Shown: piece after piece, positions 6,541 to 37,118 of the stretch
Position numbering within the stretch: position 1 is the first letter of the stretch
Layout of the letters: every line of letters begins with the position of its first letter
Origin: Caballeronia telluris
Lineage (GTDB): Bacteria; Pseudomonadota; Gammaproteobacteria; Burkholderiales; Burkholderiaceae
DNA length: 64,000 nucleotides
Direction of reading: 5' to 3'
Assembly: GCF_001544495.1 (NCBI RefSeq)
Contig: NZ_FCNZ02000003.1
Span: forward strand, 1-64,000
Program-made: the position numbers and the translations under genes
Notes under the pieces: generated by a model
Database searches by the model: none
What the model saw: only the letters and a program-made list of their open reading frames with translations
What the model was told of the DNA's origin: nothing

Positions 6541-6889
6541 GAAAACATGTTGTGCAGACCTTCCCTAGCGTTGGTCTGGGTTCATCCTGATTGCCGGGCG
6601 ATTTTCTTGCCAGGTGCCAGAATTAAAACATTGCTGGAGGGGCTACAATTCAGGGCATCGTTCCCATCCCTTCAGTGATTGTCGGCAGCAACTCAAAAAA
6701 AATGAATGAAGTTGCACATTGTGTTGGCGATATATCTGATTGGGATGTGGGCTGTTGTACAGCGTTGCACGATTGGCAGCCTTAGGTCCGGTTGCAGTCT
6801 AAATCGAGCTTTGGACAAATCGTGTCCCATCGCATACGTGTGCATAACGGATACGAATGAGGATGTCGGAGTGCGGATTGTCAGTCCGG
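6541..6889. other. Non-coding region upstream of the EcsC remnant
   Basis: No supported gene. A 64-codon frame at 6706-6900 is discounted because the palindromic operator at 6813-6827 lies inside it. The region presumably held the promoter and the lost N-terminal codons of the EcsC gene. Confidence 0.45.
6796..6827 (-). promoter_or_regulatory. Operator palindrome with -10-like box (site 1)
   Basis: GGACA-AATCG-TGTCC at 6813-6827. Read on the minus strand, towards the EcsC remnant, TAGACT (6796-6801) follows exactly 11 nt after the palindrome. This arrangement recurs at other sites in the island. Confidence 0.65.
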
Positions 6890-7225
6890 TTAGGGACTAG
6901 ATGTGTCATCGCTTTCTTCGAATGTCCCGCTGAAGTCCTCCCAGAGCTTGTCGTGTGTCTGGTTTGTCCATTCGACGATGTTTTGTTCGTCGGTTGTTAG
7001 CACGACTTCAACTAGGTCTCCTGGCTGGCTTTCGCGAATGCGCGAGACGATGAGGTGGGAGATTTTCGGCTCGACCATCGCTACTTGGGGTGATTGCCCC
7101 TGCACTCGGTATCGCACTTTGTAGCGGGGCGCGCGGTGACTTTCTGTTTGTCCTCGCCGTCGATATCGCGACGTCCGTATGTACTTTACGTTGACGAATT
7201 CCAGCGTGCCCGTAATTTTTGTCAT
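6890..7225 (-). CDS. Hypothetical protein (111 aa)
   Basis: The start at 7225 is set by AAGGAATC a few bases upstream and by the ATGA overlap with the stop of the preceding gene (7222). The product begins MTKITGTLEFVNVKYIRTSR and ends in an acidic tail (EESDDTSSP). A central part (HLIVSRIRESQPGDLVEVVL) reads like a beta-rich binding fold. No membrane segment, and I recognise no family. Translational coupling makes it the second gene of a two-gene unit whose promoter region holds a near-consensus copy of the island palindrome (7502-7516). Confidence 0.6.
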   Translation of the reverse strand: MTKITGTLEFVNVKYIRTSRYRRRGQTESHRAPRYKVRYRVQGQSPQVAMVEPKISHLIVSRIRESQPGDLVEVVLTTDEQNIVEWTNQTHDKLWEDFSGTFEESDDTSSP

Positions 7226-7449
7226 TTGATTCCTTGACTCGAAGCGGCAGTCTGCGCAACCTCGGACAGGAGTGCTCCCGTCCATGCGAGCGTCCCGTCC
7301 GGCGCTGGCAACGGTTTCAGCCGCATCTTTGCGAGAGATGCGTCGTATCCCCATAACCTCGGTGCGATGCAACGCGGCGCGTGAGCGAGCCGTGCGCTCG
7401 TTGCGCGCTGCATCACGACAGGCCTGTACACGTGGCCCTGCTTTGTCAT
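7222..7449 (-). CDS. Small hypothetical protein (75 aa)
   Basis: This frame (MTKQGHVYRPVVMQRATSAR...) has strong G/C third positions and ends in ATGA, overlapping the following start. Its own ribosome binding site is weak. An alternative frame from about 7476 (MRREVTNRYDK...) would fuse it with the next gene but is very arginine-rich and less likely. No family recognised. It lies 53 bp downstream of the palindrome at 7502-7516 and diverges from the Sir2 gene. Confidence 0.45.
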   Translation of the reverse strand: MTKQGHVYRPVVMQRATSARLAHAPRCIAPRLWGYDASLAKMRLKPLPAPDGTLAWTGALLSEVAQTAASSQGIK

Positions 7450-7484
7450 AGCGGTTAGTGACTTCCCGTCGCATTGAAGCGAGC

Positions 7485-7517
7485 AGCTTGCGCCGCGAAT
7501 GGGACAATCGCTGTCTC
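7485..7517 (-). promoter_or_regulatory. Operator palindrome, imperfect (site 2)
   Basis: GGGACA-ATCGC-TGTCTC at 7501-7517, one mismatch from the consensus, about 52 bp upstream of the minus-strand gene starting at 7449. The hexamer 11 nt downstream (CAAGCT) is a poor -10. Confidence 0.5.
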
Positions 7518-7618: not shown

Positions 7619-7651
7619 GGGACACGAACTGTCCCTACCTCGCCTTATAGT
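7619..7651 (+). promoter_or_regulatory. Operator palindrome with -10 box (site 3), Sir2 promoter
   Basis: GGGACA-CGAAC-TGTCCC at 7619-7635 is a perfect 17-bp palindrome. TATAGT at 7646-7651 lies 11 nt after TGTCC and fits a sigma-70 -10 box (5 of 6). The palindrome would cover the -35 position. Confidence 0.75.
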
Positions 7652-7727
7652 CTTTCCCGCGGCAGGGATTGACTATCATGCCGCGCGCCGGACTACGGCC
7701 GGAGCACATATGCCACAGGAAGAATTT

Positions 7728-8546
7728 ATGGAAGCACAGGCGCACGCAATTGCACGCGCAGCCGAATGGATTCGCAACGCCGACGCGCTCTTGATTACCG
7801 CGGGCGCAGGAATGGGCGTCGATTCGGGCCTTCCTGACTTTCGTGGCAACGAGGGGTTGTGGCGCGCCTATCCTGCGTTGGGGGCGTTGCAGCGCGGCTT
7901 TCAATCCATGGCGAATCCGGATGCATTCCGGGACGACCCCCTGCTTGCCTGGGGCTTCTATGGCCACCGCCTAGCGCGCTATCGCGAAGTCGAGCCGCAC
8001 GGCGGATTCGCGATACTTAAGCGTTGGGTGGCGCGCATGCCACACGGGGCGTTCGTTTATACGAGCAACGTCGATGGTCAATTCCAGAAGGCAGGTTTTT
8101 CGGAACGCTCCGTCGCGGAATGCCATGGATCGATCCACCATTTCCAGTGCGCGACGCCGTGCTGTGCGGACATCTGGCCGGCAACCGGATTCGAACCCGC
8201 GGTTGACGAGCAAGCCTGTCGAATGATCGGCGAATTGCCGCGTTGCGCACGGTGTGGTGGCCTCGCGCGTCCCAACATCCTGATGTTCTGGGACCATGCG
8301 TGGCTGGAAGAGCGGACAGAAGGTCAGATAGCGCATTTGCAGATGTGGATGAGTTCGGTCAAGCGTCTCGCGGTGATCGAGATCGGTGCCGGAACGGCGC
8401 TACCGACTATCCGTCGGTTCAGCGAGCGTCACGGACCTCGTTTTGTACGCATCAACAGTCGCGAACCCCAGATTGACCCGGCAGTGGGCCTCGGCATTCG
8501 GGGTGGAGCGCTTGAAACCTTGCTTGCCATTGATGCTGCGCTTTAG
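7728..8546 (+). CDS. Sir2-family NAD-dependent protein deacetylase (272 aa)
   Basis: The Sir2 signatures are in order: GAGMGVDSGLPDFRG (NAD-binding loop, about residue 23-37), TSNVDGQF (usual form TQN-D), ECHGS with the catalytic histidine (about 132), then zinc-ribbon cysteines C-x4-C and C-x2-C (about 140-185), and GTALP near the C-terminus. It would remove acyl groups from lysine using NAD, or act as an NADase as some defence Sir2 proteins do. ATG 7728 has AGGAAG at a 7-nt spacing; ATG 7710 is an alternative. The gene stands alone with its own palindrome-containing promoter, so it appears to be part of the island regulon. The change from Q to S in the TQN motif is unusual. Confidence 0.85.
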   Translation: MEAQAHAIARAAEWIRNADALLITAGAGMGVDSGLPDFRGNEGLWRAYPALGALQRGFQSMANPDAFRDDPLLAWGFYGHRLARYREVEPHGGFAILKRWVARMPHGAFVYTSNVDGQFQKAGFSERSVAECHGSIHHFQCATPCCADIWPATGFEPAVDEQACRMIGELPRCARCGGLARPNILMFWDHAWLEERTEGQIAHLQMWMSSVKRLAVIEIGAGTALPTIRRFSERHGPRFVRINSREPQIDPAVGLGIRGGALETLLAIDAAL

Positions 8547-8752: not shown

Positions 8753-9772
8753 ATGTCAGAACTCGATCGTGAAATCATGCGCGTCTTGCCCGATGGGGCA
8801 ACGCAGGGCAACTACCTCAGTACGCCAGAAATCCATCAGCGCGTCGTGCAGGATGCACTTGAACCCGTCACGGTCAGGACGATCAATCGCCATCTCACAC
8901 GGCTTGCGACAACCGGGCTTGTTGAGATGCAGGAGCGCGGCAACGCGCTCGAATGGCGCAGAAAGGCCGGTGCGAGCGGCATGGCGGCGCGCGCGGGTGC
9001 GATGATGACGTTCGACGAAGCGCTCGCGCTCCAGACCTTGCGGCGCTTCTCGTCGCGACAGATTCCCGGCCTCGTCGCTGACGCGTTGTCCTCGATGTTC
9101 GGGGTCGCCGAAGCGCGCTTGCAACGCCCCAACAGCCCGAACGAGCAGCACTATTCCCGATGGGCCAGCAAGGTCGCAGTCGAAAGCGGCGGCTTCGCCC
9201 TGAGCTATCCGGTAATCGACCGCGAGCTATTTGCCGTTGTTTCGAAGGCGCTCTTCGAAGAGCGCAAGCTGGAGATGGTCTATCGGCCTCGCCACAACGC
9301 CGATAACGAGACGCCGAAGGTAGTTCTTCCGCTCGGTCTTGTCGAAGTCGGTGGCCTCGTTTATCTCATTGGCGGCACCGAGGGCAAACAGGAGCCGACG
9401 ATGTACCGCATGGATCGGCTCTGGCAAGCGAAGGCGTTGCCCGAAGCGTTCTCTTATCCCGCGACATTCTCGCTCGAACAATATGTGAAGCAGCAGCGCC
9501 GTTTCGATTTCATGGTCGAAAAGGAAGTGCTCCTTAAGCTGAAATTCTTCGATAGCGCGGGCGACCATCTACTTGAAGCGCCGATGGCCATGGACCAGAA
9601 GGACTCGCGCAAGGGCGACGCGCTCTACGTGCAGGGCACGGTGATGTTGAGTCAGCGTTTGCGATGGTGGTTACGATCGTTTGGCCCGAACGTCGAAGTG
9701 CTCGGGCCAGCGAGCCTGCGCGCCGAGCTGGTGGCGGAAGCGGCGCGGCTTTACGGGATGTATGGAAACTAG
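8753..9772 (+). CDS. WYL-domain transcription factor (339 aa), copy 1, intact
   Basis: A winged-helix DNA-binding region (about residues 1-90, MSELDREIMRVLPDG... TVRTINRHLTRLATTG) is followed by a WYL domain (about 170-235, YRPRHN...VLPLGLVEVGGLVYLIGG...YRMDRL) and a WCX C-terminal part (RLRWWLRSFGPNVEVLGP). WYL regulators control defence islands and often sense nucleic acid or nucleotide ligands. This is the only intact WYL gene in the window and so the best candidate to bind the GGACA-N5-TGTCC palindromes; that link is inferred. A close relative (copy 2, 22497-23514) is frameshifted. A 191-residue gene follows 107 bp downstream. Confidence 0.9.
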   Translation: MSELDREIMRVLPDGATQGNYLSTPEIHQRVVQDALEPVTVRTINRHLTRLATTGLVEMQERGNALEWRRKAGASGMAARAGAMMTFDEALALQTLRRFSSRQIPGLVADALSSMFGVAEARLQRPNSPNEQHYSRWASKVAVESGGFALSYPVIDRELFAVVSKALFEERKLEMVYRPRHNADNETPKVVLPLGLVEVGGLVYLIGGTEGKQEPTMYRMDRLWQAKALPEAFSYPATFSLEQYVKQQRRFDFMVEKEVLLKLKFFDSAGDHLLEAPMAMDQKDSRKGDALYVQGTVMLSQRLRWWLRSFGPNVEVLGPASLRAELVAEAARLYGMYGN

Positions 9773-10528: not shown

Positions 10529-13500
10529 TTACGCGGCTGCGGCGCCGGTCATCGTTGGCTCGACGGCGACTATTGCGCCTGTCGTCACGAACACGATCAG
10601 ACCGCGCTCGGCGCCGGTGACGTCGAGATAGGCGCGAACCTGCGCGCGATAGTGCTCCACGGTCTTCACATCTGGCCGCACATCGCTTTTCCAGTCGATC
10701 ACGACGGCGGGGCGTCCATCGGCATCTAGCGTGACGGCATCGGCGATGCCGGCCGTTGCCGTTTCCTTGCCGCCGTCCTCCTGAGCGCGATAAACAGGGA
10801 ACTCCGGAACGAGCGCCGCCCTCAGTGGGGCGATCTCGGGCAATGCTAATGTCCGGGCGACGCAATCAGCGAGCTCGTGGGCAGACATCGCATTCACGGC
10901 GCCGCTTCGTTGGGGGTGCTGGAACACATCGATGAGCTCCTTCGCGCGCATGATGAGCGCCGCTGCATCGTCAGTTGTCTCTCCAGTCAGCACTTCCTCG
11001 AAGAGCTTGTGCAGGATGAGTCCGCGCTCGCGGCTCCCTTGGACCGTGCTGGCCAAGGTGGCGTCGAGCAAAGCTTCGATCCCCATTGATTCTTCCTGGG
11101 ACGCAGCTTGCAGCACCGGCCCGGACGTACTCTCGTCACGGCTTGGCGCCAACCACGTCAGCTTGTGCTGCAGTTCTGCGATGGCTCTTGCCTCGGCGGC
11201 GAACGCGTCGCGCGTCTGCGCGTTCTCCGGCTCGACGACGGCTGCTCCCGTGGCCGCCGCCAGATGCGTGACGTCGAGAGCCGGCAGCGCGCTGATCGCC
11301 AGATCGAGCAGCCCGATCCAGGAGTTCTTGGGTGCTGCCGCGTCGAGGCGCGGCAGGACGAGCAGTTCGCGGGCGCGAGTCGCAGCGACGTACCAGAGCC
11401 GGGTTCGCTCGCGGGCGAGCTCATTCTGCTCGGCTTCGCGAGCTGCCTCGTAGCCGAGCGGTGCGACGCCGAGAATCGGGCAGTAGAACGTTTCGGTCTG
11501 GCGCTCCGTGATCGCGCTGTCGGCGGCCATCACGCCAGTCATCGTGTTGACCGGAATGACGACCGGCCACTCGAGACCCTTCGACGCGTGCATGGTGAGC
11601 AGCGTGACCGCTTCTTCCTGAGCGTCCGCCTGGCCTTCGACCGCTTTGGCCTCGTCCTGCCAGGCGAGCGTCATCGCTTCGGCGAATGCCCGCAAGCCGC
11701 GTACCGCATAGCTGGCGGACAGCCCCAGATACAGATCGACGTTGACGAGCGCGCGCTCGGACTCGCGTCCGTGACGGCCGCGCAGAATATGCCGCACGCG
11801 CATGACGTCGATCGCCTGCGAAAGCAGATCGTGCGGCGTCGTGTGGTGGCTGCGACGCTCAAGCGCCTGGAGTGCCTCGATGACTTTGCGTGCAAGCGGA
11901 TGCGTGATGGCTTCGGCGTCCACGCCGAGGTCGAGTCGCGCGATGCAGTCGGGCGCGTCGGGGGCGCGCGGGAGCGTCCACGCGATATCGAGCAATGCCT
12001 CGTCCGTGAGGCCGACGAGCGGCCCGCGCAAAAGCGCGCCGAGCGCCAGCGTGTCCTTGCGGTCGGCGAGGACGCGCGTGAGCGCGATCAGGTCCTGAAT
12101 CTCCTGACGGCGAAAGAGGCCCTTGCCGGCCTGTGTCGCGACCGGGATGCCGCGGCGCTCCAGTGCCTCTTCGTAGCGCCAAAGGTCGCTGCCCGTCGGC
12201 GCGAGCAAGGCGATGTCGCCCGGCCTGCACGGACGTGTTTCGCCTGTGCGGCGATCGAGGACGGTCGCGTTGCCGACGAAGCGCGCGCACAAATCCGCGA
12301 CGGCTTCGGCTTCCGCATCGCGTTGCTGCGTGGTGTCGGCTGCGCCGCTTGCGTCTGCCACGGCGATGTCGAGCGCCGCCACGCACGCTTGCTCGCCGCG
12401 GTCGCCGTGGAATGCGTCGAGCGCGGTGAAGCCGGGCTGCCCGTCGCTCGAGAGCACATCTTCAAAGCGCTCGTTCACGTAGGCAAGGATGGGCGCACAT
12501 GAGCGGAAATTGGTCGAAATCGACAGCAGGCTCTGCGGGTCCTGTGCGCGAAACGCGTCGCGGGCCTGAACGTAGGCGCCGACGTCGGCGCCGCGAAAGC
12601 GGTAGATCGCCTGCTTCGGGTCGCCGACGAGGAACAGCGCGCCGGGACGGATGCGGAATTGCGTCCAGTCCGCGTTTAAGTGCCCGTCTGCCGGGTCGCC
12701 GCACAAACGCCAGAAAATCTCGGTCTGGAGCGGGTCAGTGTCTTGGAACTCGTCGACGAGCACATGAGCGAAGCGCGCGCCGAGCGCGCGGCGGACGTCA
12801 TCGTGATCGCGCAGCAGGTCGCGCGCGGCGAAGATCAGGTCGTCGAAATCGAGCAGCGCGGCGGTACGCTTGTAGTCGCGATAGCGTGCGAGGATCTCTC
12901 TTGCCTCGTCGACGAGCGACACCAGCACGTGACTCGCAGCAGCCTGAAGCAGTGCCGTCCACGTTTCGCTGCAGGCCTCGTAGCGATCGGTCGCGTCGTC
13001 GTTGAGCTGTTCGCCTTCTGCTTTGCTTAAGCCTTGCGCTCTCGCAGCCGCGACCCACTTGCCTTTGTAACGATAAACACGGAATTCGCCCGTCTTCGTG
13101 CGAATGTCCGAGTGGAGACGCGTCGTGAGAAGGCGGACAAGGCCCGCGGGCGTCGCCGGACCGGGGCCTGCTGACAGCGTAGCCGCCAGTTCTTTCAGGT
13201 GATCCACGATGCGCGCCGTTTCCGGTTCCATTGTTGGCGTGCCGTGTGCGAAGGCGCCGAAGGCCGCCGTCGCTTGCTGGAATGCCTGAAAGGGGCTGCG
13301 GAGCGCCGCGACGTTGGGCGCGCGAAGCGTGCGTCGGCGCCGCAGGCTTCCGGCGATCTTCCGTACGAGCGCCACCGCCTCGGCAGGCTTGTGCAGCACC
13401 AACTCGGCGAGCACGCCAGCCTGCGTGCCGCCGAGCCGCTCGCGCAACCAGCCGTCGACGATCTCATCGAACACGAGATCGGCCTGGTTGCGGTCCATCA

Positions 13501-13930
13501 CACGTGCGCCGGGATCGAGATCCGCTTCGACAGGGTATGGCTTGATCAGGCGCTGGCAGAACCCGTGGATCGTCGAGCAGGTGATCTCGTCGAGGGCCGT
13601 CGACGATGCCGCGAGATTCGCCCGTTGTGCTGGCGACAAGCCGTCTGGCAGCGCAATTCTGAGCTCGGCGCCGATTCGGCCCACCGAGAGCTCGGCAACG
13701 AATTCGCGCACCCGTGAAACGAGCTCACTGGCGGCTAGTTCGGTAAACGTGACCGCCGCGATCGAGCGCGGCGCGACGCCTTCGGCCAGCATGAGCGCGA
13801 TGCGCCCCGCCATGATGGCAGTCTTTCCGGACCCCGCGCCGGCTTCGACGAGTATCGACCGGTCATGCACGCAAATCGCGGTGCGGCGCGCGTTGTCGTC
13901 GTTGAGAGCTTTTGTCTTGCCGTGCATCAT
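10529..13930 (-). CDS. UvrD/AddA-like helicase-nuclease (1133 aa)
   Basis: An SF1A helicase of the AddA/RecB kind. Walker A is VEAGAGSGKTAI (about residue 26), Walker B is VLVDEFQDTDP (about 400), then VGDPKQAIYRFRGAD (motif III), TMHASKGLEW (motif V) and YVAATRARELLV (motif VI). The C-terminus has a RecB-type nuclease core (GIADAVTLDADGRPAVV, then IDWKSD). So it should unwind DNA from ends and degrade it. The start ATG at 13930 overlaps the stop of the AddB-like gene (ATGA), which implies translational coupling into one complex. It is the last gene of a four-gene operon with a double AAA+ ATPase and a second nuclease, so it is not the housekeeping RecBCD/AddAB locus by context. Confidence 0.85.
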   Translation of the reverse strand: MMHGKTKALNDDNARRTAICVHDRSILVEAGAGSGKTAIMAGRIALMLAEGVAPRSIAAVTFTELAASELVSRVREFVAELSVGRIGAELRIALPDGLSPAQRANLAASSTALDEITCSTIHGFCQRLIKPYPVEADLDPGARVMDRNQADLVFDEIVDGWLRERLGGTQAGVLAELVLHKPAEAVALVRKIAGSLRRRRTLRAPNVAALRSPFQAFQQATAAFGAFAHGTPTMEPETARIVDHLKELAATLSAGPGPATPAGLVRLLTTRLHSDIRTKTGEFRVYRYKGKWVAAARAQGLSKAEGEQLNDDATDRYEACSETWTALLQAAASHVLVSLVDEAREILARYRDYKRTAALLDFDDLIFAARDLLRDHDDVRRALGARFAHVLVDEFQDTDPLQTEIFWRLCGDPADGHLNADWTQFRIRPGALFLVGDPKQAIYRFRGADVGAYVQARDAFRAQDPQSLLSISTNFRSCAPILAYVNERFEDVLSSDGQPGFTALDAFHGDRGEQACVAALDIAVADASGAADTTQQRDAEAEAVADLCARFVGNATVLDRRTGETRPCRPGDIALLAPTGSDLWRYEEALERRGIPVATQAGKGLFRRQEIQDLIALTRVLADRKDTLALGALLRGPLVGLTDEALLDIAWTLPRAPDAPDCIARLDLGVDAEAITHPLARKVIEALQALERRSHHTTPHDLLSQAIDVMRVRHILRGRHGRESERALVNVDLYLGLSASYAVRGLRAFAEAMTLAWQDEAKAVEGQADAQEEAVTLLTMHASKGLEWPVVIPVNTMTGVMAADSAITERQTETFYCPILGVAPLGYEAAREAEQNELARERTRLWYVAATRARELLVLPRLDAAAPKNSWIGLLDLAISALPALDVTHLAAATGAAVVEPENAQTRDAFAAEARAIAELQHKLTWLAPSRDESTSGPVLQAASQEESMGIEALLDATLASTVQGSRERGLILHKLFEEVLTGETTDDAAALIMRAKELIDVFQHPQRSGAVNAMSAHELADCVARTLALPEIAPLRAALVPEFPVYRAQEDGGKETATAGIADAVTLDADGRPAVVIDWKSDVRPDVKTVEHYRAQVRAYLDVTGAERGLIVFVTTGAIVAVEPTMTGAAAA

Positions 13931-16575
13931 TCGGCCTCCCAGACCGCGGTGAACTCGCCGAGCCGCTCGATAGCGGCCGGCGTCTTGCGCTTGCAATACG
14001 TTGCGCTCGCATTCGCGGGCAGGGCGAATGCGAGGTCGTCGGTGTTCGAGCCGGCGTCGGGGCCGGGCAACGCCGCGCCTGCGGCGAAGCTCTCACGTGC
14101 GGCTTTGAGGTGGCCGGCGATCTCGTCGAGTACGGCGTCCGCGTTCTCGAGCACGAGGTTTTTGGCATCGCGCAGATAGAACAGCGAGGCGCTGATCGAT
14201 ACGTCGTCGCCGAGGAGTACCTTAACTGCGAACGCATAGAGGCAGCGCTGCAACTCGCGGCCGCCGTCGACCTGAATTGTCTCTTTTGGCGTCTGCCCGC
14301 TCTTGTAGTCACGCACGCGCGCGCGCGTGCCGTCGCCGGCAATGTCGAGCCGGTCAATATATCCGGCGATGTTGAATCCCGTGTCGGGGATCGAGACGGT
14401 TGCTTGTGCATCCCACGGGAGATCGGCGTCCGATTTGGGCGCGGAACCGCCGAACGGGACTTCGCCCCAGGCGCGCGCGCCGGGCAGCGTGTCGTCGTGC
14501 CAACCCAGAGCGACGCGTGCCATCGAGCGCGTGTCGTCGAGCGTCCGGCGCCAGATGACGCCCGGCGGCAACGCGCACTCATTTTCCCATTGGGCGGCGA
14601 CGGTCGTCGCCGCACGCTCCACGGCCGCCGCGATCGTTTCGGCATCGGACTTCGCGACGCCGTTCGCACGCTCGAGATCGCGCAGCGCGAGATCGAGCAC
14701 TTCGTGAACTAGGTTGCCGACGCTGGGCGCGTCGAGCATGAGCGGTTCGGCGTCGCTTTCCTGTTCACGCCAGCCGAACGCATAGAGCCACAGATAACCG
14801 AGCGGATTGCGCAGCAGGCGCCGCAGCGAACTAGCCGACTGGGTACGCGTGAGGATTGCAAGTACGAGTGGGTGGTCGGCGCGCACGAGGCCGTCATGCG
14901 CGGTGATCTCGGCGCGCTGCCAGTCGTTCCAGCACGCGCGTGCGCTGGCCGCTTGCGGCAAGGAGCGAAATTCCGCCGGTCGGCCCATGAGCCGGTCCGT
15001 TTCGGAGAAGGCGTGGACGGGGGCGGTATAGCGGCCGAGAAATGTCTCCGCGCCGTATGCGTTCAGCAGGGGACTGCGCCCCAGCTGACGCCCGTCGCCG
15101 TTGCGGCGCGCGCGCGACAGCACGGCTTCACTGGCTGTTGTTGCCAGAATGGTCTCGAAGTCCAGGCGATCTGCGGCGCTCACGTGCAGCGGATTGAATT
15201 CGGCGGCCGGAATGATGTGTTCGGGAACCAGCGCGTCCTCGGCATTGCTGCGTGGCCAACGCGAGGCGTTGAGGCCGAGCAGCCGCACGAAGCGGCGCGG
15301 CGAGCCCGCGAGCGCGCTGGCGGGCATCCACGCAACGCTCACGCATGGGTCGTGCTCATCGCTTTGCCTGGAGCTTTCCAGCGTGATGTCGATTGACGTG
15401 GCCGGGCCGGCGAGCAGCGCCGAGCGCCAGATCGCGAGCGCGCGGCCCCTTAACATGGCCTCGCCGATTTCGGGCGCGGCGTCCGGGCCGCCCGTGAGGC
15501 GCTCGACAAGCGCACGCATGGCCGCGCCGTGATCGTGGCCGTCGGGCCAGTCTTTGGCGCTCAGGCGGGCGAGCAACCGCTCCCATGCGTGCAGCGAAGA
15601 AAGCGGTGCGTCGGGCGGCATGATTCGCATCCAGCCCTTCGGCAAAGCTTCGAACAGCGCCGAATCCCGGCATAGCGACGCGAGGCGCCGCAGGCGCGAC
15701 TGCGAAAGGCCGCGCACGACGATCTGCGCCAACGCCGCGGCGGCTTGCCCGTCGCGGGTCGCCACACTGCGGATGCCATGGACGAAATGCAGATCGAGAT
15801 TGGCGTCGGCGCTCAAGGTCAGAAGAAAGTCGTCGTAGTCGGTCGTGGACGCGCTCGCGATCGCGATTTCCGAGGGGACGGCTTGCCCGGACGCAAGCAG
15901 TGACCGCACCCAGCGCATCGCTTCGATCGCTTCGTGGTAAGGCGTCGCGGCGCTCACGCCCGTTACCGTGGGCGTCGCGCACGCCGTCTGCGACACGGCG
16001 ACAGCGCCTGCGTAGAGCCACTTCGGCATCGCGCGCGGCCCGGCGGACCATTGCAGCTCGACGTGCTGCGCCAGCGCGAAAAGCATCGGTCGCCAGCACG
16101 GATCGAGATCGGTCAGCCCGGCGATTTCCACTCGCCCGAGGACAGCCGGCGCGTGAGCGATACGACGCACGGCCGCTGCGACGAGATCCGCGGGGCGCAT
16201 CATGCCCGGCGGCAGTTGCGCAAGCACGGCCGCCTCGAGCCTCGCGACGGCATCGAGGCGTGGATGGTCAGCGGCGCGCGCAGCGAGGTCGATGTCAGCG
16301 CGCCAGGCCCTTTGCAGGGTCCCGGCAGCGGCGTCGATCATGCCGGGCAGCGACTTGATGCTTTCGAGCTCGCCAATTGGCGTCGTTGGCAGCGCCGCCT
16401 TGAGCGCGCCACGCAGGCTCTCGACGTCGATCGGACGCGTGAAGCCGCCAGCGAGCCGCGCCGCCAGTTGGTCGACGGTCATGACCTGCAAGCCGTGCTG
16501 TTGACGGCGCGCCGCCGCAAGGCGGCTCGCGCGCACGGCGAGATGGTCCTGTACTACCAGTGTGCTGCGGGCCAT
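13927..16575 (-). CDS. AddB-like PD-(D/E)XK nuclease (882 aa)
   Basis: The start at 16575 has AGAGGAAA upstream and gives MARSTLVVQDHLAVRASRLA. The C-terminal third carries the RecB-type nuclease core: GYIDRLDI with the metal-binding aspartate, then VRDYKSG (the D-x-K pair), then Q of the ELQRCLYAFA helix. The N-terminal two thirds are like an inactivated helicase, as in AddB, with no clear Walker A. It should pair with the following AddA-like protein to process DNA ends. It follows the PDDEXK_4 gene by 74 bp. A classic AddB Fe-S cluster is not evident from cysteines near the nuclease core. Confidence 0.8.
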   Translation of the reverse strand: MARSTLVVQDHLAVRASRLAAARRQQHGLQVMTVDQLAARLAGGFTRPIDVESLRGALKAALPTTPIGELESIKSLPGMIDAAAGTLQRAWRADIDLAARAADHPRLDAVARLEAAVLAQLPPGMMRPADLVAAAVRRIAHAPAVLGRVEIAGLTDLDPCWRPMLFALAQHVELQWSAGPRAMPKWLYAGAVAVSQTACATPTVTGVSAATPYHEAIEAMRWVRSLLASGQAVPSEIAIASASTTDYDDFLLTLSADANLDLHFVHGIRSVATRDGQAAAALAQIVVRGLSQSRLRRLASLCRDSALFEALPKGWMRIMPPDAPLSSLHAWERLLARLSAKDWPDGHDHGAAMRALVERLTGGPDAAPEIGEAMLRGRALAIWRSALLAGPATSIDITLESSRQSDEHDPCVSVAWMPASALAGSPRRFVRLLGLNASRWPRSNAEDALVPEHIIPAAEFNPLHVSAADRLDFETILATTASEAVLSRARRNGDGRQLGRSPLLNAYGAETFLGRYTAPVHAFSETDRLMGRPAEFRSLPQAASARACWNDWQRAEITAHDGLVRADHPLVLAILTRTQSASSLRRLLRNPLGYLWLYAFGWREQESDAEPLMLDAPSVGNLVHEVLDLALRDLERANGVAKSDAETIAAAVERAATTVAAQWENECALPPGVIWRRTLDDTRSMARVALGWHDDTLPGARAWGEVPFGGSAPKSDADLPWDAQATVSIPDTGFNIAGYIDRLDIAGDGTRARVRDYKSGQTPKETIQVDGGRELQRCLYAFAVKVLLGDDVSISASLFYLRDAKNLVLENADAVLDEIAGHLKAARESFAAGAALPGPDAGSNTDDLAFALPANASATYCKRKTPAAIERLGEFTAVWEAE

Positions 16576-16648
16576 GACGGCTTTCCTCTCTATCGGGATG
16601 TGCTGACGCTGGTCTCGCGTCGAGGTCAGCGCGTTTGCGGGTGGCTTG

Positions 16649-18079: not shown

Positions 18080-18201
18080 GGCGTTGTTGTGGTCTTCCGG
18101 AACCGTGGATCGTGGCGCGGGCTACGCCAGCTTGCGGGCGGCGAACGGCATGACACCGTCTCATGGCTATCGGCACAAAGGCCGCTTTCTTTAGCAGCAC
18201 G

Positions 18202-22305: not shown

Positions 22306-22315
22306 GGCGCGAATT

Positions 22316-23827: not shown

Positions 23828-23899
23828 ATGACTTGTGTCGGGTAGCTGGTGAGCTTGAGGTCGCCCGCTACACATAACAAACAAACTACCAGAAGTGAT

Positions 23900-30209: not shown

Positions 30210-33200
30210 TTATTTCTCCGCACCAGGCAATTGATCGTCGTGCGACGCGAATGGATTGATATCGAACGTCCCGTTCGCATCGTCCTCGTGCGCGGAGAAC
30301 GACTTGGTCACCATGATCGCGGTGTCGTCGGCGGGAATCTCGATCGGATCGGAGGCCGCATGCAGGTAGTTCAGCGGCGCGAGGTCGATCATCAGCTTGC
30401 GCTGGATCTCGGCAATTTCCGCGGCGTCGAATTCGCGGCACAACAGATTTTCGAGCAGTTCCTGTTGACGCGGCTGGCCGAACGCGAGCCGGTACAGCGA
30501 GAGGATTTTCAGCAATTCGTCGAGGCGCGTGGCTTCGCGGCTCATCGGCAAGTACGGTACGAATCGCTCGATGCGAGCCTGCCCGACCGGCATGTGCCAG
30601 TATGGTACTAGGTCGCTTGAGCGTGCGTTTGCCGCGAGGCGGCGCGCGGATTTCGCGTGCCCGAACCATGCGGCCCACACATCGCCGCCATCCGCAGCAA
30701 CCGGCGTATTGGCGATGTACTCGGCGACGCGGCGACGCACCACCAGGGATTTGTAGCGGTTCACGCGTCCTTCGCGCTGCTCCAGGTCGATTGGATTCGC
30801 TGGCAGATTCCAGTGGACAACGCGCGAGCAATACCAGTGGAAGTCCAGCCCCTCCTGACCAATCGACGTGGAGTTCAGCATGAACGGCCAGAACGGCGAG
30901 TTGAATGCATCGCGCACGTTGCTTATCCGCTCGACAGCCTGCTGGTCGGTGCTGCGCTGATTGCTGATCGAAACCGCATAGTGGCAGCGGAACCGGACTG
31001 CGGCGCCATTGATGCGCTGGACCTGCGCCGTCACGCTGCCCGCGCGCAAACGTGTTGTTTCGTTGAGCCGGGCCATCGCTTCAGCCGCGTCGAGACCACT
31101 CGAGTGGAGCAGATGCAGGTATTCGTCGAACATCGCCTGAACATTGCCGCTCACGCAGTAATCCAGCGCGGCCATCCAGAACGGGATTTGCCGGTCGCGT
31201 CGGCTCTTCTTCAGGATGCGCCGTCCTTCCGGGTTGTTAAACACCTGAACGAAGTCGATTGCGCCGACGCCCGCGCGCCGTGCCAACTCGCGGTCGCCCT
31301 TGCTCCATATGCGCTCGAGGCTGGTCAGCACACTCACGGCAGGTCCGGCGATTGCCAGTTTCGCAAGAAAGCAGGGCAGATCGTCGGGCATCGGGCCGAG
31401 ATCGAGCGCCGGCTCGTCGAGCCGCCCACGCAAGATGTCGATAACGTCGCGCCGGCCGGACGCGTCAGCCGACTGGCCCGCATTACACCGGAAGTCATCG
31501 AGCCACTGCTCGCACGCGGCGCGTGGCGACAGTACGTTGCGGCCGGCATCTGCACCGGTGGAGTCGGTCCAGTCGAGCAAGAACGGCGCGAGCGCATACC
31601 ACAGATCGGGATGACGCGGCGCGGGTCCGGCGAAGCGTTGCAGTCGTTGCAAACCGTCCGCCAGAAGATTCTTCATTTCGTTGACGAGTGTCTCCGAACT
31701 CTTGCCCAAAGCCTCGTCGCGCACCGGCGCGAGATCGCAGAGCGTCCTCGACGGATAGACGAAGCCCCAAGGCGCGAGCGTCTTCGGGTTGTCGAAGCGG
31801 ATGATGTCACCGGTCGGTCGATCCTCGAAATACTTGGCATTGTCTCCCGCAGCGCGCAGCAGACGACGTTCGGCCTCATAGGAAATGAGACCGCTCAGCG
31901 CTCGCGGCGCGAGTAGCAAGCTTGAGAACAGCAGCGTTTTTGTGAACTGTGCATTGGTGGCGAACGATCCTTCGTGGTTGTAGTAAGGTCGGCTCGGAGG
32001 AATCCACAGCAGCATTTCGGCGCCGTTTCCGAACACAGCTCTCGTCACTTCGCGCAACCTGGCGTGCGGCGCGTCTTTATCCAGCTTGACTGCATAGGCG
32101 TCCAGCCTGTCGCGCGGGATCCATGCCGCTTTGGCCCGGCTCAGCGCGGCTTTCACTTCAGGAACGTTTTTGTGCGACTCGATGTACGTGCGCAGCTTGT
32201 AATCGCCAAGAAACGACAGCGGCCACGGCGCCGATTTATAGAACTCCATCAACGGCAAGTGATGGATGGTCGGCTGCACGTCGTGCAGAACCTGACCGAC
32301 CTTGTCGAAAGCAACGAACGCGTCGATCTCGGTGCGAGTGAACGTCGAGCTGCACGGCAGATGCCTCGCGTGCGTCACGTTCTCTACACCGCACCCGATC
32401 GATGCACGTTCGGTCCGGCATATGTAAGGGCGCAGCGCGGACTCGACAGCATTCTTCGGCTGCCCGTCGAGGTCGGCGGGCCGTACCGACGGATCGCGCA
32501 GGAGCAGGATCTCCTTGAGCAGTGCTTCGCGCGCCTTCGTGTACCTTTCCCATGGCGCGGTTTCGCCGCTCGCGATGAAACGCAGCAGGTGCTGGAGCTG
32601 CTCGGCGTGTGCATCTTCTTCGTCGTCGATATGTGTGAGCGCCTTATACGGCGTGGCCGACAGGAGCAGGATCTTGCCGGCGCCCTCGCGTGTCTCATCG
32701 AACACCTTGTGGGCGATGATGCCGTCCTCACTGTCGTCGTTGCGGCCGAGCAGCTCCTTGAAACGCTGAAACTCGTCAAGGATGAACAGATCGGCTTCGA
32801 GATTGCCCGCGCACGCGTGCATGAACCGCAGACGCAACTCGGTGAGGATGCGGTTGAATGCCTGTGGACAAGCTGCTTTGTTGCACGCATACAGCGTCGC
32901 GCAGCCGCGCAGTAGTTCGAACCAGTCGCCATATGGCACGTGCGCCTTGTTGAGCTCGGCGAGGTCGTCGCGCGCTAGCGGTGCTGCGCCGTTCAACGAC
33001 GCATGAAACGCGTCACGCACGCTGCGCACGATACCGCCCTCACGCGGCCAGCCGTCGTCATTGGGCCTCCACGAATCGCCCACTTCCTGCCGGAAGAAGT
33101 CCTCCAGCGCGCCGAGGTCCGAGCCGCAGAGCTGCGGATGCTCGGCCAGCGCACGGAAAATGATGTAGCGTTCCTTGGCATTGCCCTTGCCTCGACGCTT

Positions 33201-33629
33201 CACTCCGAACGACGTCGCCGGCGTTAGCGTACACACCTCGATCAGCTTGCCGCGACCATCGTGATCGCGCGCGACGCCGAGTTCGGCGAGTCGCCAGAAA
33301 GTTGGAGCCTGCACGTAGGTGGCCGCGTCCTTGTCCGGGAAAATAGCGAGCTTTCGGCGGTTTTCGTTGGCAAGCGTCTGATTTGAGCAGATGTAAGTCA
33401 CGCGCAGCGGCCTCGCGGGCTCGTCGCCATGCATCGTCAGATGGCGCAGCAGCATCCTGGCGATCACACCGCGCGCAACCACCGTCTTGCCGAGCCCGAC
33501 CTCGTCGGCCACCAGCAAGCGGTTCTGCTGTGCTTTGTCGAAGCGTTGCATTACCGCATCGACCGTCGCCCGCTGGAAATCGGTGAGCTTGGCGAAAGAG
33601 GCTGCGATCAATTCCCGTTTCCTGCTCAT
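30210..33629 (-). CDS. SF2 helicase (1139 aa), probable Azaca ZacC
   Basis: The start at 33629 overlaps the previous stop (ATGA). SF2 motifs are clear: Walker A ADEVGLGKTVVARG (about residue 40), a DEAH-like box LFILDEFQRF (about 270), motif III LLLSATPYKA (about 310) and motif VI DLEQREGRVNRY (about 980). A large insertion between the two helicase lobes is typical of SNF2-like or ERCC3-like defence helicases. The operon order DUF6361, phospholipase-D-like nuclease, helicase matches the Azaca anti-phage system (zacA, zacB, zacC) as I remember it. I could not check the family models. Confidence 0.75.
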   Translation of the reverse strand: MSRKRELIAASFAKLTDFQRATVDAVMQRFDKAQQNRLLVADEVGLGKTVVARGVIARMLLRHLTMHGDEPARPLRVTYICSNQTLANENRRKLAIFPDKDAATYVQAPTFWRLAELGVARDHDGRGKLIEVCTLTPATSFGVKRRGKGNAKERYIIFRALAEHPQLCGSDLGALEDFFRQEVGDSWRPNDDGWPREGGIVRSVRDAFHASLNGAAPLARDDLAELNKAHVPYGDWFELLRGCATLYACNKAACPQAFNRILTELRLRFMHACAGNLEADLFILDEFQRFKELLGRNDDSEDGIIAHKVFDETREGAGKILLLSATPYKALTHIDDEEDAHAEQLQHLLRFIASGETAPWERYTKAREALLKEILLLRDPSVRPADLDGQPKNAVESALRPYICRTERASIGCGVENVTHARHLPCSSTFTRTEIDAFVAFDKVGQVLHDVQPTIHHLPLMEFYKSAPWPLSFLGDYKLRTYIESHKNVPEVKAALSRAKAAWIPRDRLDAYAVKLDKDAPHARLREVTRAVFGNGAEMLLWIPPSRPYYNHEGSFATNAQFTKTLLFSSLLLAPRALSGLISYEAERRLLRAAGDNAKYFEDRPTGDIIRFDNPKTLAPWGFVYPSRTLCDLAPVRDEALGKSSETLVNEMKNLLADGLQRLQRFAGPAPRHPDLWYALAPFLLDWTDSTGADAGRNVLSPRAACEQWLDDFRCNAGQSADASGRRDVIDILRGRLDEPALDLGPMPDDLPCFLAKLAIAGPAVSVLTSLERIWSKGDRELARRAGVGAIDFVQVFNNPEGRRILKKSRRDRQIPFWMAALDYCVSGNVQAMFDEYLHLLHSSGLDAAEAMARLNETTRLRAGSVTAQVQRINGAAVRFRCHYAVSISNQRSTDQQAVERISNVRDAFNSPFWPFMLNSTSIGQEGLDFHWYCSRVVHWNLPANPIDLEQREGRVNRYKSLVVRRRVAEYIANTPVAADGGDVWAAWFGHAKSARRLAANARSSDLVPYWHMPVGQARIERFVPYLPMSREATRLDELLKILSLYRLAFGQPRQQELLENLLCREFDAAEIAEIQRKLMIDLAPLNYLHAASDPIEIPADDTAIMVTKSFSAHEDDANGTFDINPFASHDDQLPGAEK

Positions 33630-35503
33630 CGGCGATTCCTTGCGAGAGGCGCAAAGTGGCGCCACAGATTGAAAAAGACTTCCGGCACAACCATCTTCAG
33701 CTTGTCCAACCGCTTGACGAGCTGGCCGACGCGCTCCAGATGCTCGGGATTACGCGCCGCCGCCAGCATCAACTGTTCGAACAGCGCGTCGCTGCCGTCG
33801 AAGCCGAACATGTCGGAGACATCGTTGCCTTGACGGTCGGCGCGCAACACCCGGCGTTTATCGGGCGACGGGTCCAGCAGCATGCGTACGTAGTTGAGGA
33901 ACTTCTCAGGCGTGTCCACAAGTTCGCGCACCACGGCATCCTCGCGATTGACGCCAGCCGGCAGGACAAGACGCGCCTGGATGACCAGTGATTCCTTGAC
34001 CGCGCCGTCTTGCCCGCAGATTTGTAGCGGCACGAGCGCGCTCAGCTGCGTCAGCGCGAGATCGTTCCATTCGACGCCGTTCAACAGCGGCTTCCAGACG
34101 CCCAACCGGCTCAGCAGACCCACATTCACATGCAAGCCGTCCGGAACGTCAGACAGCGCGAAGTTCGTCGCCAGCACGAGACGATAGCGGCCGGTCTGGT
34201 CCGCGCGCGCGTCGAGCTTCCAGTCGGAGGCGATCAAGCGGTGCGCAAGCATGCGCAGCTTTTGCCGGTCCGACTCCTGTTCGCTGACGTCGAGCGGCGT
34301 GAACGTATGCGGCACCACGAAGTGGTTGCCTTCATCGCCGGTCCATTGCCGCAACAGCACGTCAATGCCGACCTTCGCTTCGGCGCCGCTCAGCCGCAAC
34401 ATGAATTCGGTGTTGCGTGGCGTGTCCGCAAGCGATCCGCCCAGTGCGGCAATCGTCGCGTTCGCCGAACCGAGGTGCCAGTGCGCGGTCTGTCCGCTGT
34501 GGCTCACGATCAGCTTCGCATGAAGATTCTGGCTGCGCGCGTGCTCCTCCTCGCGCTGCTCCTCGCCATCGACAATGCGATCGTTCAGCGCGTAGCAGTC
34601 CCAGCCCGAGAGCGCCTGCTGCCCGAGCGCATCCAGCGAGTCGCTACGGCTCAGCAGCATGCGCCTGCCTTTCACATCGCTGCCAAGCCAGTCAAGCGCC
34701 TTCTTCTCCGATGCATCGAGAAACGGCGACACGACAAGCAGCTCGTCCTTCGCATCGCCGAAGTTCAGCGGAGTGCCGAAGCGTTCGTCGGGGTCTGCGA
34801 TGTGCGCACCGCCGCCAGGCAACATGCGCGGGTCGCGGAACGGCTGCGGTGGCTCCCACTGCATGCGCCGGAGATCGCGGATCATCGATTTCAGTGGCTC
34901 GAAGCCTGGTGCATACGGTTGCAGCGATTCGACGAACCACGCAAGCGCGTCGTCGCTGCGCGCCGACTGGGCAGACGGTTGGCCGTCGAGGCTCGCCGTC
35001 ACATCCCAACTGCGGTCGAACGTCAAGTTGCGGCTCATGACGAGCAGCCTGTATCTGCGCTCCGGATCGGGCGTGGTCGATCCGCGCCAGTCTTTTCGCA
35101 CGTAGCGCAGTAGCCACAGCTTAGGATGAAACGACGAAAATGCCGCGCTGCGCTCGCTGTCCTGAGCGGTCGGTACGATTGGAGCGAGCATGGGCTCCAG
35201 CAGACCGAAGAGCCGGTTGAACTCCGGTGGCACGTGGATGTTGCCGCGCTGATAGAACACCTTCAGCTTGCCGCCCAGTTGGCTGATCGCGTCGAGCAGC
35301 GCAATTTTCTCGCCGGCGAGATCACCTTCGAGCGTGTTGCCGAGCACTAGCGACACGGGCAGCACCAGCAGCGCGTCGAGGTCGAGCGAATAGGTTGTCG
35401 CAATTGCCGCGTCGAGCTCATACGCGACACCGCCGGTCTCGTCAGGCGGGGGAGGCCGCAGCAGGTGACCGTAGTCGCAGCGACTGGATGCGGGATTCAG
35501 CAT
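33626..35503 (-). CDS. Phospholipase-D-like nuclease (625 aa), probable Azaca ZacB
   Basis: One HKD-type motif is visible near residue 325-350: LHAKLIVSHSG then HLGSANATIAALGG, i.e. H-x-K followed by G-S-x-N. The N-terminal part (CDYGHLLRPP...DLDALLVLPVSL) resembles other PLD-family proteins of restriction or defence loci. PLD proteins of this kind cut nucleic acid, often as dimers, since one HKD motif is half an active site. The gene overlaps the DUF6361 gene upstream by 7 bp and the helicase downstream by 4 bp, so the three are made together. Confidence 0.75.
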   Translation of the reverse strand: MLNPASSRCDYGHLLRPPPPDETGGVAYELDAAIATTYSLDLDALLVLPVSLVLGNTLEGDLAGEKIALLDAISQLGGKLKVFYQRGNIHVPPEFNRLFGLLEPMLAPIVPTAQDSERSAAFSSFHPKLWLLRYVRKDWRGSTTPDPERRYRLLVMSRNLTFDRSWDVTASLDGQPSAQSARSDDALAWFVESLQPYAPGFEPLKSMIRDLRRMQWEPPQPFRDPRMLPGGGAHIADPDERFGTPLNFGDAKDELLVVSPFLDASEKKALDWLGSDVKGRRMLLSRSDSLDALGQQALSGWDCYALNDRIVDGEEQREEEHARSQNLHAKLIVSHSGQTAHWHLGSANATIAALGGSLADTPRNTEFMLRLSGAEAKVGIDVLLRQWTGDEGNHFVVPHTFTPLDVSEQESDRQKLRMLAHRLIASDWKLDARADQTGRYRLVLATNFALSDVPDGLHVNVGLLSRLGVWKPLLNGVEWNDLALTQLSALVPLQICGQDGAVKESLVIQARLVLPAGVNREDAVVRELVDTPEKFLNYVRMLLDPSPDKRRVLRADRQGNDVSDMFGFDGSDALFEQLMLAAARNPEHLERVGQLVKRLDKLKMVVPEVFFNLWRHFAPLARNRR

Positions 35504-36762
35504 GCGAGCCCCTCCCGAATGTCCGTGAGGATCTGCCTTGCCTGCGGCCAGCGATATTGCAGCGTATAGATGCCAACCCAGCCCGTGTCCGCGGGCAGCG
35601 AGCGTTGTAAAAGCGAACGGTTGCCCTTGTTGGCGTTCGCTTGTTCGCGCACCAGTGCGTCGAGTTGTTGTGTCGGCGTGTTATCAGCGCTCATGGATTC
35701 ATGCCAACGCCGGATGAAGCGGCGCGTGTTGGTACTGACGCCAACCTGCAACGCGATGGACGGCGATAACCATTCGTCGATGGCCTGTGCATTGAAGAGA
35801 TCGTCGTCTATTGCTTCGGCGTGCCATTCGTCGAATTCCTGACTCAGCTCTTCTGCGCGCTCAGTCTGTTCGAGCTTCGCCGCGATCAGATAGTTGAATC
35901 GCAGATGCGCGCCGAGAAATGCCTTGCTGAAGCGGGCTGCATTGCGCGCGGTCGCACGGCAGATTTCAGACACTTGCGGTAACGCTTGAAGGGCGTGGCT
36001 GAGCGCTTCGAAATTTTCGGCGCCTAGCAGTGTGCCGTCGCGAAACAGATCCGTGTTGATCAGTTGGGCGGGGACGCTGTGCTTTAGCGCTTCAACGTAA
36101 CGGAGTTTGTTGTAGAGCAGTTCGGCTTCCGGGCGCGTTAGCGCGATCCGAATGTCTTCGTGCCAGTCGTGGCTGCGGCGCGGCACGGTGGCAACGAGGC
36201 GCCGGCGCTTCATCACATCGTCGTCTTCACCGATGTCGATCTCGGCGTCGTCGCGCAGCAGACGGTCGGCCGTTTGCTGCTCGCTTGCGCTGCGGCAGAA
36301 TTCGGCGATCGACAGCTCGGTATCGACGAGGCCGAACTTCCGCAGGCCGGCCCAGTACGCCGACGACGGCCGCCGCGAAGCTCCGCCCTTGCCGACCCGC
36401 TCTCTGCCGATGATGCCGACCGGAAACGGTTCGCCTTGCTCCCTCTGATCCGTCTCGTGGTTGTGCACCAGTCGTTCGGCCAGATGGTCTTCCGATTCTT
36501 TCAGATACGACTCCAGCGAGCGGCGGCGCCGCTCCTTCGGCGTCAGCACCCAATAGTCGGCGAAAATCTGCGGCACGGTAACGAAGTATTTCGCCCGCGT
36601 CTGAACGGTCGAGAAACCTGGGAAAAGACTATCCGAGAAAGCGTCGCGCAACTGACCAATACCGAGTTCGTCGAGCGTGCCGGCTTCACTCAAGAGCGCA
36701 AGTACGCCATTCACCCGTTCGCGATCGGTCGAAGAGAAATCAATCCATCCAACGCTGCTCAA
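35497..36762 (-). CDS. DUF6361 family protein (421 aa), probable Azaca ZacA
   Basis: TTG 36762 is used, with GGGAGG four bases upstream, giving MSSVGWIDFSSTDRERVNGV. The opening and the segment DELGIGQLRDAFSDSLFPG, then STVQTRAKYFVTVPQIFADY, fit DUF6361 as I remember it. The function is unknown; in this setting it may recognise the target for the helicase and PLD nuclease. It is the first gene of the operon. The nearest regulatory element is the perfect palindrome at 37102-37118, about 340 bp upstream. Confidence 0.7.
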   Translation of the reverse strand: MSSVGWIDFSSTDRERVNGVLALLSEAGTLDELGIGQLRDAFSDSLFPGFSTVQTRAKYFVTVPQIFADYWVLTPKERRRRSLESYLKESEDHLAERLVHNHETDQREQGEPFPVGIIGRERVGKGGASRRPSSAYWAGLRKFGLVDTELSIAEFCRSASEQQTADRLLRDDAEIDIGEDDDVMKRRRLVATVPRRSHDWHEDIRIALTRPEAELLYNKLRYVEALKHSVPAQLINTDLFRDGTLLGAENFEALSHALQALPQVSEICRATARNAARFSKAFLGAHLRFNYLIAAKLEQTERAEELSQEFDEWHAEAIDDDLFNAQAIDEWLSPSIALQVGVSTNTRRFIRRWHESMSADNTPTQQLDALVREQANANKGNRSLLQRSLPADTGWVGIYTLQYRWPQARQILTDIREGLAC

Positions 36763-37085
36763 TACGCCTCCCGTGACAGATCGTTATTCAAGTTAAGACA
36801 GTTCGCTGGCCGATCAACTCATGGCCAACGCAGCGACGTAGCCGCATCGGCAAACAGAATGAAACTGACGGGAAGCGTCAGTGTTTCTTCAAAACTGCTT
36901 GCAGTCCACATGTCATCCATGTTCGCGCGCGCCATTCAGCGATGCGTGTTGTACGGCAATGGGCGCAAAAACTTTAGCACTAGACGGCGCGACAACTTTT
37001 CGAAGCACGATCCGCTATCGATCTAGCCGTCTTCTAACGGTTGTAGTCGCATCATTCCACCCAGACGCGGGTGCTCTGCAGGTCG

Positions 37086-37118
37086 ATTATCAATGCAGGT
37101 TGGGACATTTCCTGTCCC
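37086..37118 (-). promoter_or_regulatory. Operator palindrome with -10 box (site 8)
   Basis: GGGACA-TTTCC-TGTCCC at 37102-37118 is perfect over 17 bp. On the minus strand GATAAT (37086-37091, 5 of 6) follows after 11 nt. It points towards the DUF6361/PLD/helicase operon. Confidence 0.75.

Follow-up and report, generated by a model that had tools for sequence, protein, structure and literature searches.

The first 64,000 nucleotides (nt) of contig NZ_FCNZ02000003.1 from Caballeronia telluris (assembly GCF_001544495.1; positions 1–64,000, forward strand; hereafter the window) contain an island of defence-related genes whose intergenic regions carry a short palindrome, GGACA-N5-TGTCC. Scanning the window with up to two mismatches places perfect copies at 6813, 7620, 20412, 21772, 21827 and 37103 and one-mismatch copies at 7502 and 23610; all eight are called intergenic, and they span 6.8–37.1 kb. 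An original prediction, made from the letters alone, had named these eight intergenic palindromes, six perfect and two with one mismatch, which stands apart from three of its coordinates (7619, 21826 and 37102), each 1 nt too low. It had also described −10-like hexamers that begin exactly 11 nt after the palindrome at five of the sites. These are correct, and the other three sites likewise carry an xAxxxT hexamer at this offset on one side, the orientation of 7502, 21772 and 23610 having been chosen by us in showing it. Sequence comparisons within this and related genomes support the view that unrelated modules have the palindrome in common and that it is linked to a family of WYL-domain regulators. 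The eight composite elements are as follows:

Operator-promoter 1, 6796–6827, minus strand: palindrome 6813–6827, −10-like TAGACT at 6796–6801, 35.2 bits; reads towards the EcsC remnant.
Operator-promoter 2, 7485–7516, minus strand: one-mismatch palindrome 7502–7516, CAAGCT at 7485–7490, 22.5 bits; reads towards a small gene at 6890–7225.
Operator-promoter 3, 7620–7651, plus strand: palindrome 7620–7634, −10-like TATAGT at 7646–7651, 30.4 bits; before the Sir2 gene.
Operator-promoter 4, 20395–20426, minus strand: palindrome 20412–20426, −10-like CATACT, 32.0 bits; before the AAA+/nuclease/helicase operon.
Operator-promoter 5, 21755–21786, minus strand: palindrome 21772–21786, CACCAT, 27.3 bits; reads towards an open reading frame (ORF) at 21216–21725.
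Operator-promoter 6, 21827–21858, plus strand: palindrome 21827–21841, −10-like CATACT, 31.5 bits; before a small ORF (21949–22305), then WYL-2.
Operator-promoter 7, 23610–23641, plus strand: one-mismatch palindrome 23610–23624, TAAGTT, 25.1 bits; between WYL-2 and the zinc-ribbon/Eleos genes.
Operator-promoter 8, 37086–37117, minus strand: palindrome 37103–37117, −10-like GATAAT, 33.7 bits; before the DUF6361 (ZacA)-ZacB-ZacC operon.

Across the genome of this strain (7.06 Mb, 163 contigs), six of the eight perfect palindromes lie in the window, within 30.3 kb, while the other two (L007 and L008) fall inside genes according to our own gene finder; when xAxxxT is required at offset 11, all six genome matches lie in the window. 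The two-mismatch count of the window is at chance level (26 against a mean of 22.1, with 18 of 100 shuffles reaching 26), and one-mismatch copies in the genome number 133, against 59 for the reversed pattern; the signal is therefore carried only by the strong sites. No site of at least 12 bits occurs at the type III restriction-modification genes of the window (45439–51566).

The genes of the island are listed below. WYL-1 is surrounded by defence systems, comprising matches to Eleos and Zac models and helicase/nuclease modules.

EcsC-family remnant, 5708–6410, minus strand: two overlapping ORFs, downstream of operator-promoter 1.
Sir2-family gene, 7710–8546, plus strand: homologues adjoin WYL genes in many relatives.
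WYL-1, 8753–9772, plus strand: intact gene of 339 amino acids (aa), beginning 206 nt beyond the Sir2 gene; proposed owner of the sites.
Operon, 10529–20358, minus strand: AAA+ ATPase (18202–20358), PDDEXK_4 nuclease (16649–18079), PDDEXK_1 nuclease (13927–16731) and UvrD-type helicase (10529–13996).
WYL-2, 22497–23514, plus strand: split over two reading frames, with pieces 51% and 61% identical to WYL-1.
Zinc-ribbon-like small protein, 23849–24106, plus strand: Pfam matches below cut-off only.
Eleos-type operon, 24185–28161, plus strand: LeoBC (24185–26452) and LeoA (26452–28161).
Zac operon, 30210–36762, minus strand: ZacA (DUF6361; 35497–36762), ZacB (33626–35503) and ZacC (30210–33665).

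The WYL-2 gene is split, yet the sites on both of its sides have been kept.

Distribution and promoter geometry of the element

For a survey of relatives, WYL-1 was aligned with 24 homologues and two peptide patterns drawn from the alignment were used to scan GTDB genomes. The scan returned 45 loci, each made up of the WYL gene and at most 10 kb of flanking sequence in either direction, and not necessarily all that exist; as these loci were chosen by their WYL gene, its recurrence among them proves nothing by itself. Their 859,147 bases contain 50 perfect palindromes, against 0.8 expected under uniform chance. When every five-base arm is ranked at a gap of 5, GGACA is the commonest, at 49 occurrences against a mean of 1.5 per arm, and this is also the top count over gaps of 0–12 (GCGCG reaches 44 at gap 1 and CGCGC 46 at gap 10). 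Intergenic and coding counts were compared, as the original prediction had proposed: of the 55 distinct perfect sites in the window and the 45 loci together, 54 lie between genes, in sequence of which 73.5% is coding, and 66 of the 72 sites with one mismatch in the 45 loci are likewise intergenic. A composite matrix, applied with the tested locus left out, yields 118 matches of at least 16 bits in the same set; when each sequence was shuffled once with an order-1 Markov model, there were none. These matches represent 111 positions, and a correctly oriented gene lies within 1.2 kb of 84 of them and within 400 nt of 57. By contrast with the WYL loci, 20 arbitrary 20-kb regions (400 kb from nine genomes of the genus) contain no site of at least 14 bits and no perfect palindrome. 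Chance occurrence of the palindromes was considered and rejected on the strength of the clustering in the strain's own genome, the excess at WYL loci, the arm ranking, the shuffles and the arbitrary regions.

The spacing between palindrome and −10 box is exact. With the 54 perfect intergenic sites read in both orientations, a good −10 hexamer stands at offset 11 in 40 of 108 readings and in 0–5 at any of the remaining offsets between 0 and 39; for one-mismatch sites the figures are 37 of 128 orientations at offset 11 and five or fewer at every other offset between 5 and 19. Both counts are free of selection for the −10 score, unlike the −10 columns of the 50 oriented sites considered below, which are partly selected because these sites were picked for a −10 score of at least 2 on their better side. 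In these 50 sites a −35 hexamer is absent: at a 17-nt spacer the mean match to TTGACA is 0.82 of six bases, with a maximum of 2, and over spacers of 15–19 nt a single site reaches four matches. The palindrome instead occupies the place of the −35, its centre lying near −31, as had been foreseen in the claim that it would cover this region. Ahead of the palindrome the commonest outer bases are TCG, and behind it C-(A/G)-A; they are weakly conserved and weakly palindromic, the first three outer pairs being complementary in 15, 28 and 25 of the 50 sites. Flanks are only 26–27% identical between sites, so the constant spacing is not mere copying, and recent copying of one cassette was rejected on this ground; the 11-nt spacer is somewhat more alike between sites (0.32 against 0.255 when shuffled).

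A site occurs in 29 of the 32 loci whose WYL protein is at least 45% identical to WYL-1, and in 7 of the 13 at 36% or below. At L051, L054, L057, L058 and L064, the WYL gene has outward-pointing sites on both sides, about 160–180 nt before it and up to about 110 nt after it, although the upstream site of L064 reaches only 14.5 bits. In the Herbaspirillum locus L078, whose WYL protein is 45% identical, the palindrome has AGACA/TGTCT as its arms, and the A and T of the −10 keep the same distance from it, as would be expected if regulator and site change together; this is a single case.

Perfect palindromes number 256 across 58 genomes of the genus, this strain included, against 118 for the reversed pattern, with 0 to 10 in each genome. 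Requiring the A and T of the −10 at offset 11 leaves 76 matches, 27 of them (21 without the strain's own genome) no more than 30 kb from a WYL match (E 1e-30), where about 0.8% would be expected. The 27 comprise 24 palindromes, three matches being the second reading of one palindrome. By genome, 6 matches fall in the 16 genomes without a WYL match and 64 in the 41 others besides our own. Two Eleos operons of the genus whose contigs hold no WYL match (L184 and L185) have no such promoter, and their one one-mismatch match lies inside leoA. Clustering at WYL homologues, together with absence from the arbitrary regions and from these two operons, supports the predicted link between a WYL regulator and an element shared by unrelated modules.

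Genes behind the element in relatives

The genes downstream of the element in the survey form 73 clusters, from which 34 representative proteins were searched in Pfam, PADLOC or both. Behind the sites stand Sir2 proteins, dynamin-like and LeoA/LeoB-like GTPases, NERD and UvrD-type helicases and PDDEXK nucleases, as well as BnzB-like, PLD-like, DISARM-like helicase and RecC-like proteins; 9 of 30 downstream proteins have no Pfam match. The element is thus common to many unrelated genes, some of them outside known defence genes. In 13 of the 45 loci the WYL gene is followed by a relative of the zinc-ribbon-like protein. A 137-aa family without a Pfam match (L041:8585–8998 and others) also recurs near WYL genes and behind sites. 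No WYL relative is encoded in the viral contigs searched, and a search of plasmids gave one record.

The 49 genus matches far from a WYL match comprise 20 of an S53-protease type, 10 SLATT-like, 3 recC-like, 2 next to lexA, 1 Sir2 and 13 unclassified; the S53, SLATT and LexA labels are our readings of translated sequences rather than search results. In the genus the motif is not confined to islands: in relatives it also precedes other genes, some in genomes where no WYL was found. The S53 (kumamolisin-like) protease gene has the element upstream at L089, L093, L096, L107 and L109; five of the 20 matches were translated and the rest assigned by shared sequence. A repeated sequence of the genus containing CGCCGGAACTGCAT was considered as coding and rejected; it is intergenic and lies 5' of the S53-type protease. 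By genome, this site is found in 18 of 42 with a WYL match and 2 of 16 without (one-sided Fisher p 0.027, kinship ignored).

The 10 SLATT-like matches were placed upstream of the gene, which encodes a small protein, by coordinates. At the SLATT-like promoter loci (L084, L088, L091, L098 and L134–L163), palindrome and −10 have the same geometry as elsewhere. Counting the 30 of 32 matches given as loci, a site is present in 24 of the 27 genomes with a WYL match besides our own (19 at 16 bits or more and five at 5.8 to 15.4) and lacking in three (G042, G013 and G001); among the two genomes without a WYL match, G045 has the site and G032 does not. The recC-like gene has the element 70–474 nt upstream in three loci (L085, L087 and L101). 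Its close relatives occur in only 8 of 58 genomes, with more distant ones in most others, and it is therefore not a general target. One of the two lexA-adjacent matches was translated.

WYL-1 as a candidate activator

The architecture of WYL-1 is that of a winged helix-turn-helix (wHTH)-WYL-WCX protein: Pfam identifies the WYL and WCX domains, and residues 1–72 of the structural model, its predicted wHTH, align to winged-helix domains. A Foldseek search with the model ranks DriD first (E 2.7e-16, at about 20% identity), followed by PafBC (5.9e-13), BrxR (2.8e-7) and CapW (3.9e-6). A Protein Data Bank (PDB) sequence search lists DriD and PafBC chains, the similarity to DriD being confined to the WYL-WCX part; BrxR and CapW are unlisted there, which does not exclude them. 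As the model is of moderate quality, these matches rank relatives and prove no mechanism.

DriD binds ATACGAC-N7-GTCGTAT over the −35 at a constant distance from the −10, in promoters with poor −35s and a conserved G at −14, and acts at several of them (didA, bapE, recJ and dnaG; PMC12340889). GGACA-N5-TGTCC contains the same GAC-N7-GTC core, and the printed didA and driD promoters have hexamers (CAAGGT and CAATCT) 15 nt from the half-site G, as here, in the orientation chosen to place the G at −14. The two systems thus share a WYL protein with a wHTH, a GAC-N7-GTC palindrome over the −35 at constant distance from the −10, a poor −35 and several target promoters. They differ in the outer arms, a weak TCG...CGA here and ATAC...GTAT in DriD, and in the targets, which here include defence modules; activation and ssDNA (single-stranded DNA) binding would carry over to WYL-1 by analogy.

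Because the 11-nt spacing is exact and the −35 hexamer missing, we favour an activator of the DriD kind over a blocking operator, and consider it probable, from sequence and analogy, that the wHTH-WYL-WCX family binds these palindromes and activates, rather than repressing in the manner of BrxR or CapW. The shared operator of the original prediction accordingly survives as a shared, regulator-linked element, whereas its geometry points away from a blocking role. A dimer of the WYL-1 type would bind GGACA-N5-TGTCC and, more weakly, the outer bases TCG...CGA, centred near −31, and help RNA polymerase use promoters equipped with a −10 box and lacking a −35 hexamer. Activation would occur when the WYL domain carries its signal, for which the analogy with DriD and PafBC leads us to propose ssDNA from DNA damage or phage replication as the most likely ligand (PMC12340889 and, in the passages concerned, PMC11804915). 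Modules with the element, here the Sir2, AAA+/nuclease/helicase, Eleos and Zac genes and several small genes, would join one inducible regulon, and operator-promoter 3 would give feedback if Sir2 and WYL-1 form one transcript.

A wider proposal, which we hold only tentatively and at somewhat less than even chances, is that the Burkholderiales possess a DriD-like WYL regulon sensing DNA damage or ssDNA, to which defence islands are plug-in extensions. This regulon, often paired with Sir2, would include the recC-like, S53-protease and SLATT-like promoters, and modules with GGACA-N5-TGTCC-N11-(−10) would be switched on together when phage DNA is processed.

Several observations weigh against an activator regulon owned by the WYL family. 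At the level of the sites, the later matrix gives 19 bits to L007, which lies in coding sequence, the −10 frequencies used were assumed ones, the leave-one-out test leaks because some loci are near-identical or overlapping (L052/L055/L056 and L039/L060), and our home-made gene finder missed small genes. There is no site of at least 16 bits in L043, L065, L072, L075, L078, L079, L080, L082 or L083, although L043 has a WYL protein at 74% identity and 21 kb of sequence; L065 is a 4.8-kb contig. At the level of targets, non-defence genes (an AraC regulator, a GGDEF protein, a UDP-sugar dehydrogenase, a 5'-nucleotidase and a resolvase) also stand behind the element, 49 of the 76 matches in the genus lie away from any WYL match, and two S53-type as well as four unclassified or core matches (G003, G021, G029 and G047) lie in genomes without a detected WYL. 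As to the protein, the WYL-1 model has a mean predicted local distance difference test (pLDDT) score of 76.8 and a predicted template modelling (pTM) score of 0.43, and VIA-align gives DriD a Z of 13.8 (root mean square deviation 9.2, 188 residues aligned, C-domain), not far above the 10.9–11.8 of CapW and BrxR. Finally, both strands of the DriD site score alike, bapE could not be aligned, and the 15-nt agreement rests on the chosen orientation.

The geometry bears most directly on the idea that the WYL protein, like BrxR and CapW, is a repressor that blocks polymerase until a ligand releases it, with the modules derepressed together. WYL regulators already described at defence islands are repressors, shown or presumed, in the passages on them (PMC9122601, PMC9122588, PMC9122589). 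They appear to share the family fold by Foldseek and VIA-align, and BrxR half-sites are likewise 5 nt apart, the Acinetobacter site overlapping the −35 in an arrangement thought to repress (PMC9122589), which counts against activation here. A repressor, however, requires neither a constant distance to the −10 nor loss of the −35, both of which are seen, and the centre near −31 matches that of DriD by our own measurement, whereas the Acinetobacter BrxR site covers −51 to −27 and the CapW site lies over the −10; we regard repression as unlikely.

Ownership is a separate question. Another transcription factor or an alternative sigma factor might own the motif, with the WYL gene merely co-located, and the matches in genomes without a WYL match speak for this, although some of those genomes are fragmented or incomplete (G027 is at 60%). 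Viewed from the motif side, WYL matches are far nearer than expected, and genomes with no WYL match have fewer copies of the motif. In several loci the sites stand immediately next to the WYL gene and face away from it, and the arms are symmetric, unlike a sigma promoter; in an analysis that took WYL genes and the motif as its starting points, all of this makes an outside owner very improbable. Ownership might also rest mainly with a core-type WYL (about 35% identical to WYL-1 and often beside Sir2), the island WYLs only modulating. Promoters outside islands do carry the motif in relatives, and the recognition helices are alike (RTINRHL in WYL-1, KTVQRRL or KTIHRHL in others and KKVQRHL in the core type). 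Yet our own genome, which has no core-type WYL match, keeps its eight sites while its SLATT-like promoter has none, and 5 of the 10 fetched loci with a YTKKVQRHL helix lack a site of at least 14 bits, so that main ownership by the core type seems to us about equally improbable.

Comparison with known regulators

Both defence-island regulators of the WYL family and WYL activators of the DNA-damage response are already known. The PafBC motif is a GTC at a similar distance from the −10. PafBC, from actinobacteria, resembles the proposed regulator as a WYL-domain activator, itself activated by ssDNA, through which housekeeping polymerase uses −26-motif promoters, and differs in being a heterodimer with a non-palindromic site and, in the passages concerned, no defence-island regulon (PMC11804915, PMC6789036). 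The mycobacterial activator SiwR also acts under genotoxic stress at a palindrome upstream of the −10, but this is a 19-bp imperfect palindrome between −35 and −10 and, as described there, serves one operon (PMC10693628). BrxR, from the BREX (bacteriophage exclusion) system, is a defence-island WYL regulator with R-BOX1 and R-BOX2, in which half-sites are spaced by 5 nt (PMC9122601, PMC9122589); these passages have it repressing in E. fergusonii and thought to do so in Acinetobacter, at sites of other sequence and position, and two boxes rather than eight. CapW, of the cyclic oligonucleotide-based antiphage signalling system (CBASS), binds as a WYL dimer to a palindrome in a defence promoter; that palindrome covers the −10 of the CBASS operon only, and the account of it shows repression (PMC9122588). 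RptR is likewise one regulator at a defence island, but a non-WYL protein that represses its own promoter at TAGCTA sites in the passages describing it (PMC12255303). CapK/CapS, described as DNA-damage-driven control of immune operons, is related in theme (PMC13373217).

Among the open PubMed Central matches listed, the passages describe neither the GGACA-N5-TGTCC motif, for which the original prediction knew of no regulon, nor a multi-module defence regulon under a WYL activator, nor a WYL-Sir2 pair. Where BrxR, CapW and RptR appear in these sources as repressors of one or two promoters, the element described here links many unrelated modules, and one short, exactly placed promoter element ties them to one WYL family in several genera. 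This suggests that one regulator may turn on whole defence islands together. The element would then be an admission ticket to an inducible immune regulon and would join WYL activators of the DNA-damage response with phage defence. It predicts candidate defence genes as those that stand behind it, and allows a test of whether bacteria induce their immunity as a regulon.

Sir2 genes recur beside WYL genes beyond the island. Sir2 lies within 3 kb of 27 of 62 WYL entries (repeated loci and partial matches included), and homologues of the gene at 7710–8546 adjoin a core-type WYL as a two-gene unit in at least 17 genomes of the genus (L114–L126 included). WYL factors have been linked to NAD chemistry in a paper on ADP-ribose systems, the passages of which do not extend the link to a WYL-Sir2 pair (PMC9503650). 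In the wider regulon proposed for the Burkholderiales, Sir2 may feed or tune the WYL signal.

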